A DNA stretch of 50,192 bases from an uncultured Eubacteriales bacterium (lineage in GTDB: Bacteria > Bacillota > Clostridia > Christensenellales > CAG-138): positions 1 through 50,192 of the forward strand of contig ONNZ01000016.1 of assembly GCA_900319345.1 (NCBI GenBank). Reading direction: 5' to 3'. The notes beneath the pieces were generated by a model, which saw only the letters and a program-made list of their open reading frames with translations, was not told where the DNA came from and made no database searches. A program made the position numbers and the translations under genes. Below are positions 32,921-37,063 of the stretch, one piece after another (position 1 is the stretch's first letter; each line of letters starts with the position of its first letter).

Positions 32921-34099
32921 ATGGCCATGAAGCAGCGCGTGAAGAAGACCATGGCAGCGGGGCTCAGCGCCCTGCTGTTTTTCTGGTATTTTTCCCCAGC
33001 CATGGCCGCCCTCCGGGCCATGCCCCAGGCGGTGGAGCCGGGGACGGCGGCAGCAGCAGGCCCCCTGATCGAGGCCCGGCCCGTCCGGTCCAGCGGGGAC
33101 GAGCGATTGCCGGGCGGGGAGCGAACCTATGCCCTCCTGGGTTTGGTGCCCCTGAGGACGGTCCAGACGGCGCCTCGCCTCCCCACCGTGCGGCTGGGGG
33201 GACAGGCTGTGGGCGTGATCCTGTACACCAAGGGGGTCCAGGTGGTGGGCCTCACCGCGGTGGAGACGGCGGAGGGGGCCCTGTCGCCTGCTTCCGCCGC
33301 CGGGCTCAAAAAGGGGGACGCCATCTTGGCCGTGGACGGCCAGCCGGTGTCGGGGGCAGCGGGGCTTTCGAAGCTTTTGCAGGACAGGGTGCAGGCGGAG
33401 TTGACCGTCCAGCGGGGCGGGGAACGGCTGACCCTGTCCCTGCGGCCCGCCCTGGAGCGGGATACGGGCGCGCGGAAGCTGGGGGCCTGGGTCCGGGAGA
33501 GCACCTCGGGCATCGGCACCCTGTCCTTCTTGAAGGGGGACCGGTTCTGCGCCCTGGGCCACGGGGTGGCGGACGTGGACACGGGGCTCACCCTGCTGAC
33601 GGACCGGGGCTATATCACCCCCGCCGCCGTCACCGCCGCCCTGAAGGCGGAAGCGGGCCGGGTGGGGGAGCTGGCGGGGGAGTTCTCCACCCGGGAGAGC
33701 GACGCCGTGGGGACCGTGGACGTGAACGGGGACTACGGCGTGGCCGGGCTCTACCTGGGCAACGGGAGCCTGTGGGGGGCGGAGGTGCCTCTCGCGGCGG
33801 CGACTCAGGTGGAGACGGGGGACGCCACCCTCTACTCTGCGGCGGACGGGGCCTGGCGGGGGTACGGTTGCCGGATCATCCGATTGAAGGTCCAGAGCGC
33901 CCCGGGGGTCCAGGGCATGATGATCGAGGTCACGGACCGGGACCTGCTGGCCCTCACCGGCGGCATCGTCCCGGGCATGAGCGGCAGCCCCGTGGTCCAA
34001 AACGGCCGCCTGGTAGGCGTGGTGACCCACGTGTTCGTCAACGAGCCCAAAAGGGGCTACTGCGTCTACGCCCAGTGGATGCTGGAAAAACTGTTTTAG
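32921..34099 (+). CDS. spoIVB: SpoIVB-type S55 peptidase
   Basis: The 392-residue protein has a signal/anchor segment (about 11-30), a PDZ domain (about 95-175, GLKKGDAILAVDGQPV) and the S55 domain with His214 in CALGHGVAD, Asp339 in EVTDRDLL and Ser354 in PGMSGSPVVQNGRLVG. In Bacillus this protease is made in the forespore and triggers pro-sigma-K processing by cleaving SpoIVFA. Gene order spoIVB-spo0A is conserved in spore formers. The start (ATG at 32921, or 32927) has only a weak GGAAGG site. Confidence 0.92.
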   Translation: MAMKQRVKKTMAAGLSALLFFWYFSPAMAALRAMPQAVEPGTAAAAGPLIEARPVRSSGDERLPGGERTYALLGLVPLRTVQTAPRLPTVRLGGQAVGVILYTKGVQVVGLTAVETAEGALSPASAAGLKKGDAILAVDGQPVSGAAGLSKLLQDRVQAELTVQRGGERLTLSLRPALERDTGARKLGAWVRESTSGIGTLSFLKGDRFCALGHGVADVDTGLTLLTDRGYITPAAVTAALKAEAGRVGELAGEFSTRESDAVGTVDVNGDYGVAGLYLGNGSLWGAEVPLAAATQVETGDATLYSAADGAWRGYGCRIIRLKVQSAPGVQGMMIEVTDRDLLALTGGIVPGMSGSPVVQNGRLVGVVTHVFVNEPKRGYCVYAQWMLEKLF

Positions 34100-34139: not shown

Positions 34140-34269
34140 ATTCATAAATTATTCATACAAATTGCGCGATTTTTGACGGTCCGCGTCTTGAAATACAGCG
34201 AAAATACGTGTATTATTCTAATCGAACCGGGGAATAATCCGGTTTCATATTTATTCATATCTATTCATA
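34140..34269. repeat. Phased ATTCATA boxes upstream of spo0A
   Basis: ATTCATA occurs at 34140-34146, 34151-34157, 34253-34259 and 34263-34269, and TTTCATA at 34243-34249. Within each group the spacing is 10-11 bp, one helical turn. The two groups flank the promoter. No consensus Spo0A box (TTTGTCRAA) is seen. This AT-rich stretch stands out against the GC-rich surroundings. Confidence 0.7.
34188..34216 (+). promoter_or_regulatory. spo0A promoter
   Basis: TTGAAA (34188-34193), 17-nt spacer, TATTAT (34211-34216). The leader then holds ACCGG/CCGGT inverted repeat (about 34225-34242) and three phased boxes before the start codon. Confidence 0.75.
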
Positions 34270-34287: not shown

Positions 34288-35079
34288 ATGAAGACACTTC
34301 GTATCGTCAGCGCGGACATGGAGGCGGCGGAAGGCCTGCAAACCATGCTGATCCGCAACAAGCAGTTTCGCGTTTTGCCGATCCTGCGGGACGGCAGAGA
34401 GCTTTTGGAACGGTATATGGAGGAGCGCACGGACGTGTTGCTCATCGACCTGGAGCTGCCGGGCATCGACGGCCTGGAGATCGTGGAAGCCGTTTCGTCC
34501 CTGCCCGTACTGCGGCGGCCCCAGCTGTTCGTCATGGCCGGGGCGGGCACCTCGTCCGTGCTGGAACGGATGGGGGACGAGATCGATTACTGCTTTTTGA
34601 AGCCCCTGGAACCCAAGAAGGCAGCCGCCCAGCTCTATGCCCTGACCCGGGGCGAAGCGCCCGTGGTCCGGCCCGATTACGGATATGTGGAATATTTGGT
34701 GACCCGCACCCTCTTCTCCCTGGGCGTGCCGCCCCACTTGCAGGGCTATCATCTGCTGCGGGAGGCCATCAAGCTGGTGAACTGCGCCGACCATCCGGCC
34801 CGGCTTTCCGTCATGAAGGACATCTATCCCGCCACCGCCCGGCTCTGCGGCACCTCCGTGTCCATGGCCGAGCACGCCATGCGCCACGCCATCGAGTGCG
34901 CCTGGATGCGGGCGGACATCAACACCATCCAGACCTTCTTCGGCTATACGGTGGAGGCCCACCGGGACACGCCCTCCAACTCCGCCTTCATCTACATGGT
35001 GGCGGACCGGGTCCGCATGCGCATGGACAGCCCCTGGGGCGAGGGCCTTTCCCTGCGGGAGGAGGCGCTGAGAGCATGA
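34288..35079 (+). CDS. spo0A: Stage 0 sporulation protein A
   Basis: The 263-residue protein has a receiver domain (1-120) and the Spo0A effector domain (about 140-245): SLGVPPHLQGYHLLREAI, then SMAEHAMRHAIECAW (recognition helix) and TFFGYTVEAHRDTPSNSAFI. Asp54 aligns with the phosphorylated Asp, and Lys105 (FLKP) is kept. The acidic pocket is reduced (SADM instead of ADDN, so one Asp is missing) and the conserved Thr/Ser is replaced around VMAGAG. It follows spoIVB, as expected. GGGAGGG lies only 3 nt before the ATG. Its stop overlaps the next gene (ATGA). Master regulator of sporulation entry. Confidence 0.93.
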   Translation: MKTLRIVSADMEAAEGLQTMLIRNKQFRVLPILRDGRELLERYMEERTDVLLIDLELPGIDGLEIVEAVSSLPVLRRPQLFVMAGAGTSSVLERMGDEIDYCFLKPLEPKKAAAQLYALTRGEAPVVRPDYGYVEYLVTRTLFSLGVPPHLQGYHLLREAIKLVNCADHPARLSVMKDIYPATARLCGTSVSMAEHAMRHAIECAWMRADINTIQTFFGYTVEAHRDTPSNSAFIYMVADRVRMRMDSPWGEGLSLREEALRA

Positions 35080-35864
35080 GCGAAAGGAAGAACGCCTGTC
35101 TCCTGCTCCGGCCCCAGGAGAGGGCCCGGGCGGCGGCCTACCTCACCGGCCGGGGCATGGCCGTGACGGACCGGCTGGACCAGGACACCTGTTTTCTTTT
35201 AGCGGAGGAGGAGCTGCTGCCCCGCCCGGCGGAGGCGCTGGCGGGCCGGTGCCTGTCGTCCAGCGTCCCCCTGTTCCTGCTGGCGGAGCGGGACAGCGCC
35301 CGGGCCGAGGGCCTGGACGCCGCCTTCGTGTTCTACAAGCCCCTGGTGCTGGAGCTGGTGCTGCGGCGGATCGCCCTGCTCCTGGGGGAAACGGACGACG
35401 AGGGCGGGCGCCAGGGCTGGTTCACCCTCCAGGCCCAGTGCTCCCTGGACGCCCTCAGCGTGCCCCGGCACCTGCTGGCCTTCCGCTACTTCTCCGACGG
35501 GGTGGGCTTGCTGTCAGAGATGCCGTACCCCTCCCGGATCAAGCTCATGCAGCAGCTCTATCCCGCCCTGTCCCAGCGCCACAACTCCTCCCCGGTCATG
35601 GTGGACCGGGCCATGCGCCACGGGGTGGAGAGCTGCTGGCGGCTGGCGGGGAAGGGGGTCCAGCGCCAGTACTTCGGCTACAGCGCTCAGGACAAGCAGG
35701 GCATGCCCACCAACGGGGAGTTTCTCTTCGCCGTCTACGAGCACGTGAAGCTCCTGCTGCCCTACGATCGGGGCCGGGACGCCTTTTTGCGGGAGCTGCG
35801 CCGGATCAACGAACGGGATATGGTCCCAAACGGTTGTCAATCGGCCCAGGATTTGATATACTGA
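35076..35864 (+). CDS. Degenerate Spo0A paralogue
   Basis: The 262-residue protein repeats the Spo0A layout. Residues 1-105 look like a decayed receiver: VPLFLLAERD and VFYKPLVLELVLRRIA mirror FVMAGAG and CFLKPLEPKKAAAQL of Spo0A, but no Asp sits at the phosphoacceptor position and the N-terminal acidic pocket is gone. Residues 125-230 match the effector domain: LSVPRHLLAFRYFSDGV, LMQQLYPALSQRHN, VMVDRAMRHGVESCW (recognition helix), QYFGY and MPTNGEFLFAVYEHVKL. It overlaps spo0A by 4 nt (ATGA), so both are made from one mRNA. It may be a phosphorylation-independent DNA-binding partner or antagonist of Spo0A; that is inference. Confidence 0.82.
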   Translation: MSERKNACLLLRPQERARAAAYLTGRGMAVTDRLDQDTCFLLAEEELLPRPAEALAGRCLSSSVPLFLLAERDSARAEGLDAAFVFYKPLVLELVLRRIALLLGETDDEGGRQGWFTLQAQCSLDALSVPRHLLAFRYFSDGVGLLSEMPYPSRIKLMQQLYPALSQRHNSSPVMVDRAMRHGVESCWRLAGKGVQRQYFGYSAQDKQGMPTNGEFLFAVYEHVKLLLPYDRGRDAFLRELRRINERDMVPNGCQSAQDLIY

Positions 35865-35893: not shown

Positions 35894-37063
35894 ATGAGCA
35901 AGAGAGCTATTTTGATCGTTCTGGACAGCGTGGGCATTGGCGCCCTGCCCGATGCGGTGGAATTCGACGACGTGGGGGCCAACACCCTGGGGCATATCCA
36001 GGAGCGCCACCCCCTGCACATCCCCAACATGCGCCGCCTGGGCATCGGCCATATCGAGGGCAGCCCCCTGCCCAAGTGGGAGGGCCCCGTGGAGGGCGCC
36101 TACGGCAAGTGCATGGAGGTGACCCACGCCAAGGACACCACCTGCGGCCACTGGGAGATGGCGGGCCTCATCCAGAAGACCGCCTTCAAGACCTTCCCCA
36201 ACGGCTTCCCCCAGACCCTCATGGACGAGTTCGAAGCTAAGATCGGCCGGGGCACCCTGGGCAACGAGGTGGCCAGCGGCACCGAGATCATCGAGCGGCT
36301 GGGGGACGAGCACGTGAAGACCGGCAAGCCCATCGTTTACACCTCCGCGGACAGCGTGTTCCAGGTGGCGGCCTGCGAGGAAGTGATCCCCCTGGAGGAG
36401 CTCTACCGCATCTGCGAGATCGCCCGGGAGATGCTCCAGGGCGAATACCTGGTAGGCCGGGTCATCGCCCGCCCCTTTACGAAGAAGGACGGCAAATACG
36501 TCCGCACCGAAAACCGGAAGGACTACGCCATCCCGCCCTTCGAGGACACCATCCTGGACGGGCTCCACGCCAAGGGCCTCCCCGTGGTGGCCATCGGCAA
36601 GATCGAGGACATCTTCTGCCACCGGGGCATCGACCTGGTGGACCACACCAAGAACAACGAGACCGGCGTGGCGGCCACGGAGCGCTTCGTCGCCGAGGGC
36701 ACGGGCAGCTTCATCTTCACCAACCTGGTGGACTTCGACATGCTCTACGGCCATCGGCGGGACGTGGAGGGCTACGCCAAGGCTCTGGAGCGCTTCGATG
36801 AGCAGCTTCCCGACATCATGGGGCTCATGAAGGACGAGGACATCCTCATGATCACCGCGGACCACGGCTGCGACCCGGCCCATCACGGCACGGACCACAC
36901 CCGGGAGCACATCCCCCTGCTGGTGTGGGGCAAGCCCGTGAAGGGCGGCGTGGACCTGGGCGTCCGCCAGAGCTTCGCGGACATCGCCGCCACCATTTAC
37001 GACTACCTGACCGGCGCCCCCTGGCACGCGGGCACCTCCTTCCTGAAGGATATTCTTAAGTAA
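35894..37063 (+). CDS. deoB: Phosphopentomutase
   Basis: The 389-residue enzyme begins [21 protein letters not shown] with the metal-binding Asp, has [10 protein letters not shown] and [20 protein letters not shown] with the remaining metal ligands. It interconverts ribose- or deoxyribose-1-phosphate and -5-phosphate in nucleoside salvage. AGGAG lies 8-9 nt upstream. It has its own promoter within the previous gene and a probable operator; no other nucleoside gene is adjacent. Confidence 0.97.

Follow-up and report, generated by a model that had tools for sequence, protein, structure and literature searches.

By the textbook account, phosphorylated Spo0A controls entry into endospore formation, and it is phosphorylation that joins two Spo0A effector domains. 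Two overlapping genes that seem to depart from this scheme, here termed A1 and A2, lie in a window of 50,192 nucleotides (nt), contig ONNZ01000016.1 of an uncultured Eubacteriales bacterium of the order Christensenellales (below, the order), and all coordinates given are positions in this window. Several systems described elsewhere are reminiscent of one or other aspect of this locus. Clostridium thermocellum is reported to have two Spo0A homologues, Clo1313_0637/Cthe_3087 and Clo1313_1409/Cthe_0812 (PMC4890492, PMC3804516), and phages encode Spo0A homologues without a receiver, which consist of the Spo0A_C domain only (PMC10294663). Pseudo-receivers or aspartate-less receivers have lost catalytic residues, the Asp often being replaced by Glu (PMC12632262, PMC4395418), and Spo0A is mentioned among the regulators in which the Asp-to-Glu exchange alone is insufficient for constitutive activity (PMC4395418). 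In Streptomyces, sporulation genes are controlled by a heterodimer of two atypical response regulators, BldM and WhiI (PMC4125116). A survey of sporulation initiation, in which Spo0A was found via Spo0A_C, considers it likely orthologous across distant species (PMC6136694), and as a marker of sporulation potential surveys rely on finding spo0A or a response regulator that carries Spo0A_C (PMC6136694, PMC11536998).

Species with two Spo0A proteins and phage proteins made of Spo0A_C only are thus already known. C. thermocellum resembles the present case in having two homologues per genome, but what the accessible text describes is one extra homologue and not an overlapping pair with dead pockets. 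The phage proteins share with A1 and A2 a Spo0A effector domain without a working receiver, whereas A1 and A2 are chromosomal, occupy a conserved locus and retain a receiver or a remnant of one. With pseudo-receivers they have in common the loss of catalytic residues and the exchange of Asp for Glu; no Spo0A-family example is described in the available portions of that work. The heterodimer of BldM and WhiI has been shown in Streptomyces, whereas for A1 and A2 we infer one, and the effector family of BldM-WhiI differs from that of Spo0A. Neither an overlapping, pocket-dead Spo0A pair nor a displacement of Spo0A was found in the literature searched, the scope of which took in neither preprints nor most subscription papers.

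A1 (34288-35079, 263 amino acids, aa) and A2 (35076-35864, 262 aa) are both on the plus strand and, as the original prediction stated, overlap by 4 nt: the stop codon of A1 and the start codon of A2 share the ATGA at 35076-35079, immediately 5' of which, within A1, there is a purine-rich stretch resembling a ribosome site. The Spo0A_C domain (PF08769, curated cut-off 25 bits) is found at 34699-35010 in A1 (100 bits) and at 35445-35744 in A2 (66.9 bits) by search with hidden Markov models (HMMs), both matches being significant. A2 also aligns with the solved Spo0A C-domain 1fc3 (E value 1e-9), and its alignment to A1 covers 163 aa at 27% (E value 8e-21). The cut-off of the Spo0A equivalog model TIGR02875 (200 bits) is reached by neither protein (A1 147.6, A2 57.6 bits). 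The receiver domain (PF00072, cut-off 30.2 bits) is matched in A1 with 39.9 bits. In A2 there is no Pfam receiver match, and residues 1 to about 113, N-terminal to Spo0A_C, are a probable remnant receiver. A2 is nevertheless unlike the Spo0A_C-only proteins, since about 113 residues, a conserved block among them, precede its domain; the exception is the A2 of one relative, G012, which is without the N-terminal part (160 aa, domain from residue 27). A1 is situated directly downstream of spoIVB (32921-34099, plus strand; a SpoIVB serine peptidase, Peptidase_S55, 205.7 bits), the classical position of Spo0A, in the window as well as in relatives. A1 and A2 are therefore like Spo0A of Bacillus and Clostridium in their Spo0A_C effector, in their position downstream of spoIVB and in a complete (A1) or remnant (A2) receiver. 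They differ from it in that A1 is without the acidic pair, A2 is without a recognisable phosphorylation site and both score below the equivalog cut-off; furthermore, there are two overlapping genes here, and the genome encodes a further Spo0A whose receiver is intact.

By its residues A1 would count as a pseudo-receiver, in which the domain is matched and key catalytic residues are missing. Asp and Lys are retained, while the acidic pair reads Ser-Ala in 9/9 congeners; another Asp follows one residue after that pair, and a one-residue shift of the alignment would restore one acid. The Thr/Ser column holds Ala in five and Thr in four of the nine genus genomes. A1 had been taken for a normal-looking Spo0A, a description at odds with this pocket and with its equivalog score. 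A2 of the window has Glu at the phosphoacceptor column and Pro-Gln as acidic pair, and it keeps the Lys of "FYKP", as predicted. The predicted lack of a phosphoacceptor Asp holds for seven of the nine genus genomes, that of the window included (Glu in five, Thr in one, Ala in one), but the two others (G003, G011) have an aligned Asp, in a column where the alignment is uncertain; the acidic pair is missing from A2 in all nine. The claim that the N-terminus of A2 is receiver-like finds support in its second half only. Compared by hhalign with 97 Spo0A-family receivers, it gave a probability of 68.7% over its last 65 columns, against 3.8% for reversed A2, 0.05% for SpoIVB, 0.15% for deoB and 0.33% for dacF, and its most conserved block, [FY]VFYKPL.LELVLRR[IV], aligns with the receiver end. 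A receiver remnant in A2 is likely, not certain, the support for the fold being partial.

The genome of the window (G000; 90% complete, 0.16% contaminated) carries a third Spo0A_C gene on another contig, C62, with a domain score of 139.7 bits. This gene is cut at the contig end; an N-terminal part with both pocket acids, the Asp, the Ser and the Lys is found at the end of contig C56, and the two ends have 99 identical bases in common. The idea that A1 is the phosphorylation-driven Spo0A of this genome was consequently rejected: its pocket is defective, and elsewhere the genome holds a Spo0A_C gene that scores higher and whose receiver is intact. In what follows, beta denotes such an unlinked Spo0A copy and alpha the spoIVB-linked gene in the classical spo0A position, the labels alpha, beta and outgroup having been assigned by neighbours and tree position.

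Multiple copies are the rule in the order. Spo0A_C matches occur in 55 of its 61 genomes, and at least two in 46 of these 55; outside the order at least two are found in 26/103 genomes, with at least one of these (G105) being one gene in two pieces. The general statement that Spo0A is usually a single gene is therefore valid for most of the class and fails for this order. SpoIVB is directly upstream in 22 of the 47 Spo0A rows of other orders; it was not seen in the stretches of the other 25, which are partly second copies or short stretches. A tree of 129 rows, restricted to proteins of at least 225 aa and 85 bits and to genomes other than G001, G002, G003, G004, G009, G010 and G011, has one beta clade (100 in the Shimodaira-Hasegawa-like approximate likelihood ratio test, SH-aLRT). 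The clade unites 45 of 57 unlinked order rows with six outgroup rows, namely the second, unlinked Spo0A of G062, G096, G122 and G146 and both copies of G066, and it contains none of the 26 spoIVB-linked order rows and none of the 22 spoIVB-linked outgroup rows. Of the 12 unlinked order rows that it leaves out, most are decayed copies, with several beside deoB. Because long branches meet among the decayed alpha rows, this tree is used for the beta clade alone, which is recovered in C-domain trees of chosen rows (7 rows, 100/100, starred). SipL is encoded nearby at 13/48 order beta loci and 3/4 outgroup beta loci, as compared with 0/30 alpha loci, and SpoIVB near none of the 48 beta loci. Trees and neighbours together would place A1 in the classical spo0A position and make beta a separate and older copy.

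The state of the receivers follows the same division. With the pocket scored at four positions (second pocket acid, Asp, Thr/Ser and Lys) and called complete when all four are present, it is complete in 0/9 A1, 0/9 A2, 5/26 alpha, 28/49 beta and 17/21 outgroup spoIVB-linked rows; the remaining four of these 21 miss the N-terminus alone, in the gene models used. This comparison covers classed proteins of at least 200 aa with at least 95 residues before the domain, A1 of G012 and the two genes of the G028 pair are among the 26 alpha rows, and the alpha count may be low since at least two alpha rows (G024, G057) have no N-terminus in the gene models. For the relatives' proteins, start codons were assigned by a simple rule, which has probably misplaced some of them (as in G202 and G205). 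In members of four other families (G038, G043, G044, G045), just a short Spo0A_C frame of 115-133 aa stands beside spoIVB in the stretch examined. These data suggest an ancient duplication, after which alpha decayed in most of the order and the unlinked beta stayed conserved. Such a history is supported but not proven: the trees are unrooted, alpha is not one clade, alpha and the outgroup spoIVB-linked Spo0A form no clade of their own, and in the C-domain trees the outgroup rows lie between the A and alpha rows on one side and beta on the other. Alpha is regarded as the orthologue of classical Spo0A mainly because it lies behind spoIVB. We consider the order-wide decay of alpha against the conservation of beta, with the conversion of alpha to A1-A2, a more interesting finding than the pair itself.

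Beta is not uniform either. Its phosphoacceptor Asp is replaced by Glu in 12 of 49 proteins (G014 L065, G020 L084, G022 L089, G024 L094, G026 L097, G031 L110, G032 L114, G033 L117, G035 L121, G045 L142, G054 L162 and G064 L214) and by Val in one (G023). The second pocket acid is lost in all 13 of these; 28/28 betas that keep this acid keep the Asp, and eight keep the Asp without it. SpoIVB matches and, at 258 bits or more, sigF-like matches are found in all 11 Glu-form genomes checked, those other than G064; calling such scores high or low is our own reading, as 0/61 genomes of the order reach the curated sigF cut-off of 321 bits. For the order as a whole it can be proposed, tentatively and with somewhat less than an even chance of being right, that the role of sporulation master regulator changed hands to beta, that the spoIVB-linked spo0A gave rise to phosphorylation-independent regulators, here an obligate A1:A2 (or fused) regulator, and that with Glu-form beta, in many genera, entry into sporulation may bypass Spo0A phosphorylation. 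If true, the sporulation gate has been rebuilt in these Clostridia, and using spo0A or Spo0A_C as a marker can lead to the wrong gene in a large number of uncultured members of that class.

Within the genus, the A1-A2 pair is found with the same neighbours in nine of 12 genomes, so that contamination or a one-off event could be rejected as its source. The locus is probably unassembled in the other three (G002, G006, G010; 70-76% complete), since the SpoIVB match is missing there too. All nine pairs have the 4-nt overlap (GTGA in G008), A1 is open in each of them, and A2 is likewise present in all nine, ending a few residues earlier in G007. The median ratio of nonsynonymous to synonymous substitution rates (dN/dS) is 0.20 for A1, 0.35 for A2 and 0.05 for beta (36, 36 and 28 genome pairs), the beta set comprising eight of the 12 genomes, as the gene is in pieces in G000 and G008, a short open frame in G002 and not found in G006. 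For the neighbours spoIVB and deoB it is 0.34 and 0.10, and within A2 it is 0.45 in the N-terminal and 0.22 in the C-terminal part. Both A1 and A2 are under purifying selection, and on this analysis they were rejected as pseudogenes. A recent phage origin of A2 was rejected as well: 11 phage records match, at just 24-29% identity. The recognition helix is MAEHAMRHAIECAW in A1 (9/9), VMVDRAMRHGVESCW in A2 (9/9 over the shared core) and KVERAIRHAIEVAW in beta (8/8); it is thus invariant within each of the three proteins and different among them. The checks that the original prediction had called for, occurrence of the overlapping pair in close relatives and a low dN/dS, thereby came out in favour of a function, with A2 unbroken in all nine.

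Outside this set the pair is known from further genomes, three genera in all: g1 (9 genomes), g2 (10) and g18 (2). In g2, which comprises 23 genomes, it stands between spoIVB and deoB in 10 of the 15 examined; the stretches examined from the other five show an A1- or an A2-like gene on its own, flanked by neither spoIVB nor deoB. In two of the ten, A1 and A2 are joined at the A2 start codon in one open frame, of 400 codons in G210 (L243 1942-3144) and of 398 in G211 (L247 1245-2441), each frame encoding a pair of Spo0A_C domains that score 84-100 bits. These fused frames are the best evidence for the A1 and A2 products acting together. A first C-domain tree, of 48 chosen rows, groups A1 of the three genera (95/91, starred; 6 rows), A2 of the three genera weakly (73/49), and A1 with A2 (91/94). 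In a larger one, of 50 chosen rows, A2 and unlinked A2-like rows from four genera form a clade (100/99, starred; 16 rows), as does A1 (89/81, 11 rows). A tandem duplication of alpha, older than the split of the three genera, probably gave rise to A1 and A2. That they are instead decaying leftovers without function is a reading to which receiver decay and the fast evolution of the N-terminal part of A2 might lend colour, but it is most improbable, given two open genes in 9/9 genus genomes, a dN/dS that stays well under 1 in either half of A2, invariant helices, A2-type proteins in four genera and two fusions.

The control region has features of its own. A promoter scan places a sigma-A-type promoter for A1-A2, TTGAAA-17-TATTAT, at 34188-34216 (plus strand); the scanned region has three promoter-like sites against 0.6 in shuffles, and a TTG[AT]AA-16/18-TANNNT pattern is found upstream of A1 in 9/9 genus genomes. 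Upstream of the promoter, at 34140-34156 on the plus strand, lies a direct repeat of period 11, ATTCAT-n5-ATTCAT, which is a candidate operator. ATTCAY in its first half is kept in seven of nine genomes, and the repeat is missing at A1 in G007 and G008. The period-11 repeats were rejected as a regulon-wide motif, their sites being sparse and, away from A1, largely intragenic; at A1 the status of candidate operator is kept. Before beta, the promoter carries ATTCGY-n5-ATTCGC, which occurs exactly once in four of the five whole genomes searched, always, by position, before beta; in the fifth, G008, where beta is in pieces, it was not found.

Together, these elements can be assembled into a mechanism to which we assign an even chance as a whole: A1 and A2 would form an alpha-derived, phosphorylation-independent, DNA-binding heterodimer, with beta as the conserved Spo0A. 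A1 and A2 would descend from the classical spoIVB-linked spo0A, and the unlinked beta, probably an ancient duplicate, would be the conserved Spo0A of the order. Alpha, released from the Spo0A role, would have lost phosphorylation control and undergone tandem duplication, probably in the ancestor of the three genera. A1 and A2 would be made together from one messenger RNA (mRNA) by way of the overlapping stop and start codons and would most likely associate through the faces of the receiver and the receiver remnant. The A1:A2 heterodimer would then most likely bind direct-repeat sites, such as the one before A1, with its two effector domains joined without phosphorylation. As phosphorylation normally unites these domains, overlap and fusion would do so by other means. 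The output of the pair may be a basal tone in, or a brake on, some of the Spo0A regulon, or else control over a separate one. The idea of a co-translated, conserved partner with a receiver that should not be phosphorylatable is supported: the pair is conserved in nine of 12 genus genomes, with dN/dS below 1, and the natural fusions fit a joint function. If the mechanism is true, these fusions are ready-made constructs to ask whether two joined Spo0A effector domains replace phosphorylation-driven dimerisation.

A number of observations weigh against this mechanism. The heterodimer is inferred from gene coupling and two fused frames, and the fusions come from draft assemblies, in which an indel error in each is unlikely, not excluded. 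There is no gene overlap in g18, the genes being separated by 2 nt in G233, where the pair is behind spoIVB, and by 55 nt in G028, where neither spoIVB nor deoB was found nearby. The N-terminal part of A2 compares weakly with that of A1 (hhalign probability 13%) and evolves fast. With Asp and Lys still present in A1, and an aligned Asp in the A2 of G003 and of G011, weak phosphorylation is possible. Regarding common descent, the clade of A1, A2 and A2-like rows has 82/91 in the 50-row tree, the joint clade is starred in neither tree, and the linked A2 rows alone form no clade in the 50-row tree, such a clade not being rejected (p 0.19, approximately unbiased test). Exact matches to the repeat number nine in five genomes (0-3 each), three of them before A1 and four of the other six intragenic on our reading; a reversed control of the pattern gave no site in the same five genomes. 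As to output, G021, in which alpha is kept without SpoIVB or beta, argues against a purely sporulation role.

There are two other views of what the pair does. A1 and/or A2 could be a brake or decoy that occupies Spo0A boxes or pairs with beta, and so holds sporulation genes off until phosphorylated beta suffices. The Arg-Ala-x-Arg-His core of the beta helix is kept in A2, the pair adjoins spoIVB, and beta occurs in all nine pair-bearing genus genomes, though in pieces in two of them (G000, G008), as do sigF-like matches of 295 bits or more. However, the A1 helix has His for Arg, in both helices several positions depart from the invariant helix of beta, suggesting a changed specificity, and the repeat before A1 (ATTCAT) is unlike that before beta (ATTCGC). 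Moreover, alpha is retained next to deoB in G021 (L087), without a SpoIVB match or beta, and its sigF-like matches do not exceed 115.5 bits. On balance we judge a brake unlikely, at about half the weight of the heterodimer mechanism. Slightly less probable still is an independent regulator that controls genes outside sporulation and has kept only the Spo0A fold. The sigma-A-type promoter and the divergent recognition helices would suit it, as would the persistence of alpha in G021 though sporulation markers are missing, and the two Spo0A_C genes of G056 (L165, L166), where SpoIVB is missing and the sigF-like matches peak at 152 bits; in both genomes the Spo0A-like genes seem to outlive sporulation. 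On the other hand, Spo0A_C is not matched at all in G016, G034, G039 and G040, genomes without SpoIVB whose best sigF-like matches reach just 117, 119, 153 and 133 bits, as is expected if Spo0A_C genes go with sporulation.

Close to the presumed 5' end of the A1-A2 mRNA, a hairpin (34224-34245, plus strand) is predicted in 7/7 distinct genus sequences, with z-scores of -1.0 to -3.4; it is weak in the sequence of G001/G005, where 35/200 shuffles are as good. Changes in its stem look compensating by eye only, the letters being poorly aligned. Downstream, the conserved neighbour of A2 is a gene that we take to be deoB, for phosphopentomutase (35894-37063, plus strand; Metalloenzyme superfamily, 150 bits), and the genes 3' of the pair are read as deoB, dacF, site-2 protease, scpA and scpB, several of these names being presumptive. 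A promoter-like site before deoB (35834-35862, plus strand) overlaps the last codons of A2, and this is perhaps the reason why an A2 tail of DLIY, DLVY or DVVY is common to seven of nine genomes.

Other Spo0A-like genes are scattered over the order and beyond. Away from spoIVB, many order genomes encode stand-alone Spo0A_C proteins, small ones of about 100-150 aa (for example L078, L079, L083, L119, L120 and L156), and several have two each (G018, G026, G033, G050). In genus g15, G025 (94% complete) has SpoIVB and sigF-like matches of up to 298 bits and yet no Spo0A_C match, while A2-like proteins are present in G169 and G170 of the same genus. In another order, locus L212 of G102 has two closely related Spo0A-like genes (101 and 96 bits) in tandem behind spoIVB; they are sisters in the 129-row tree and represent a separate, younger tandem.

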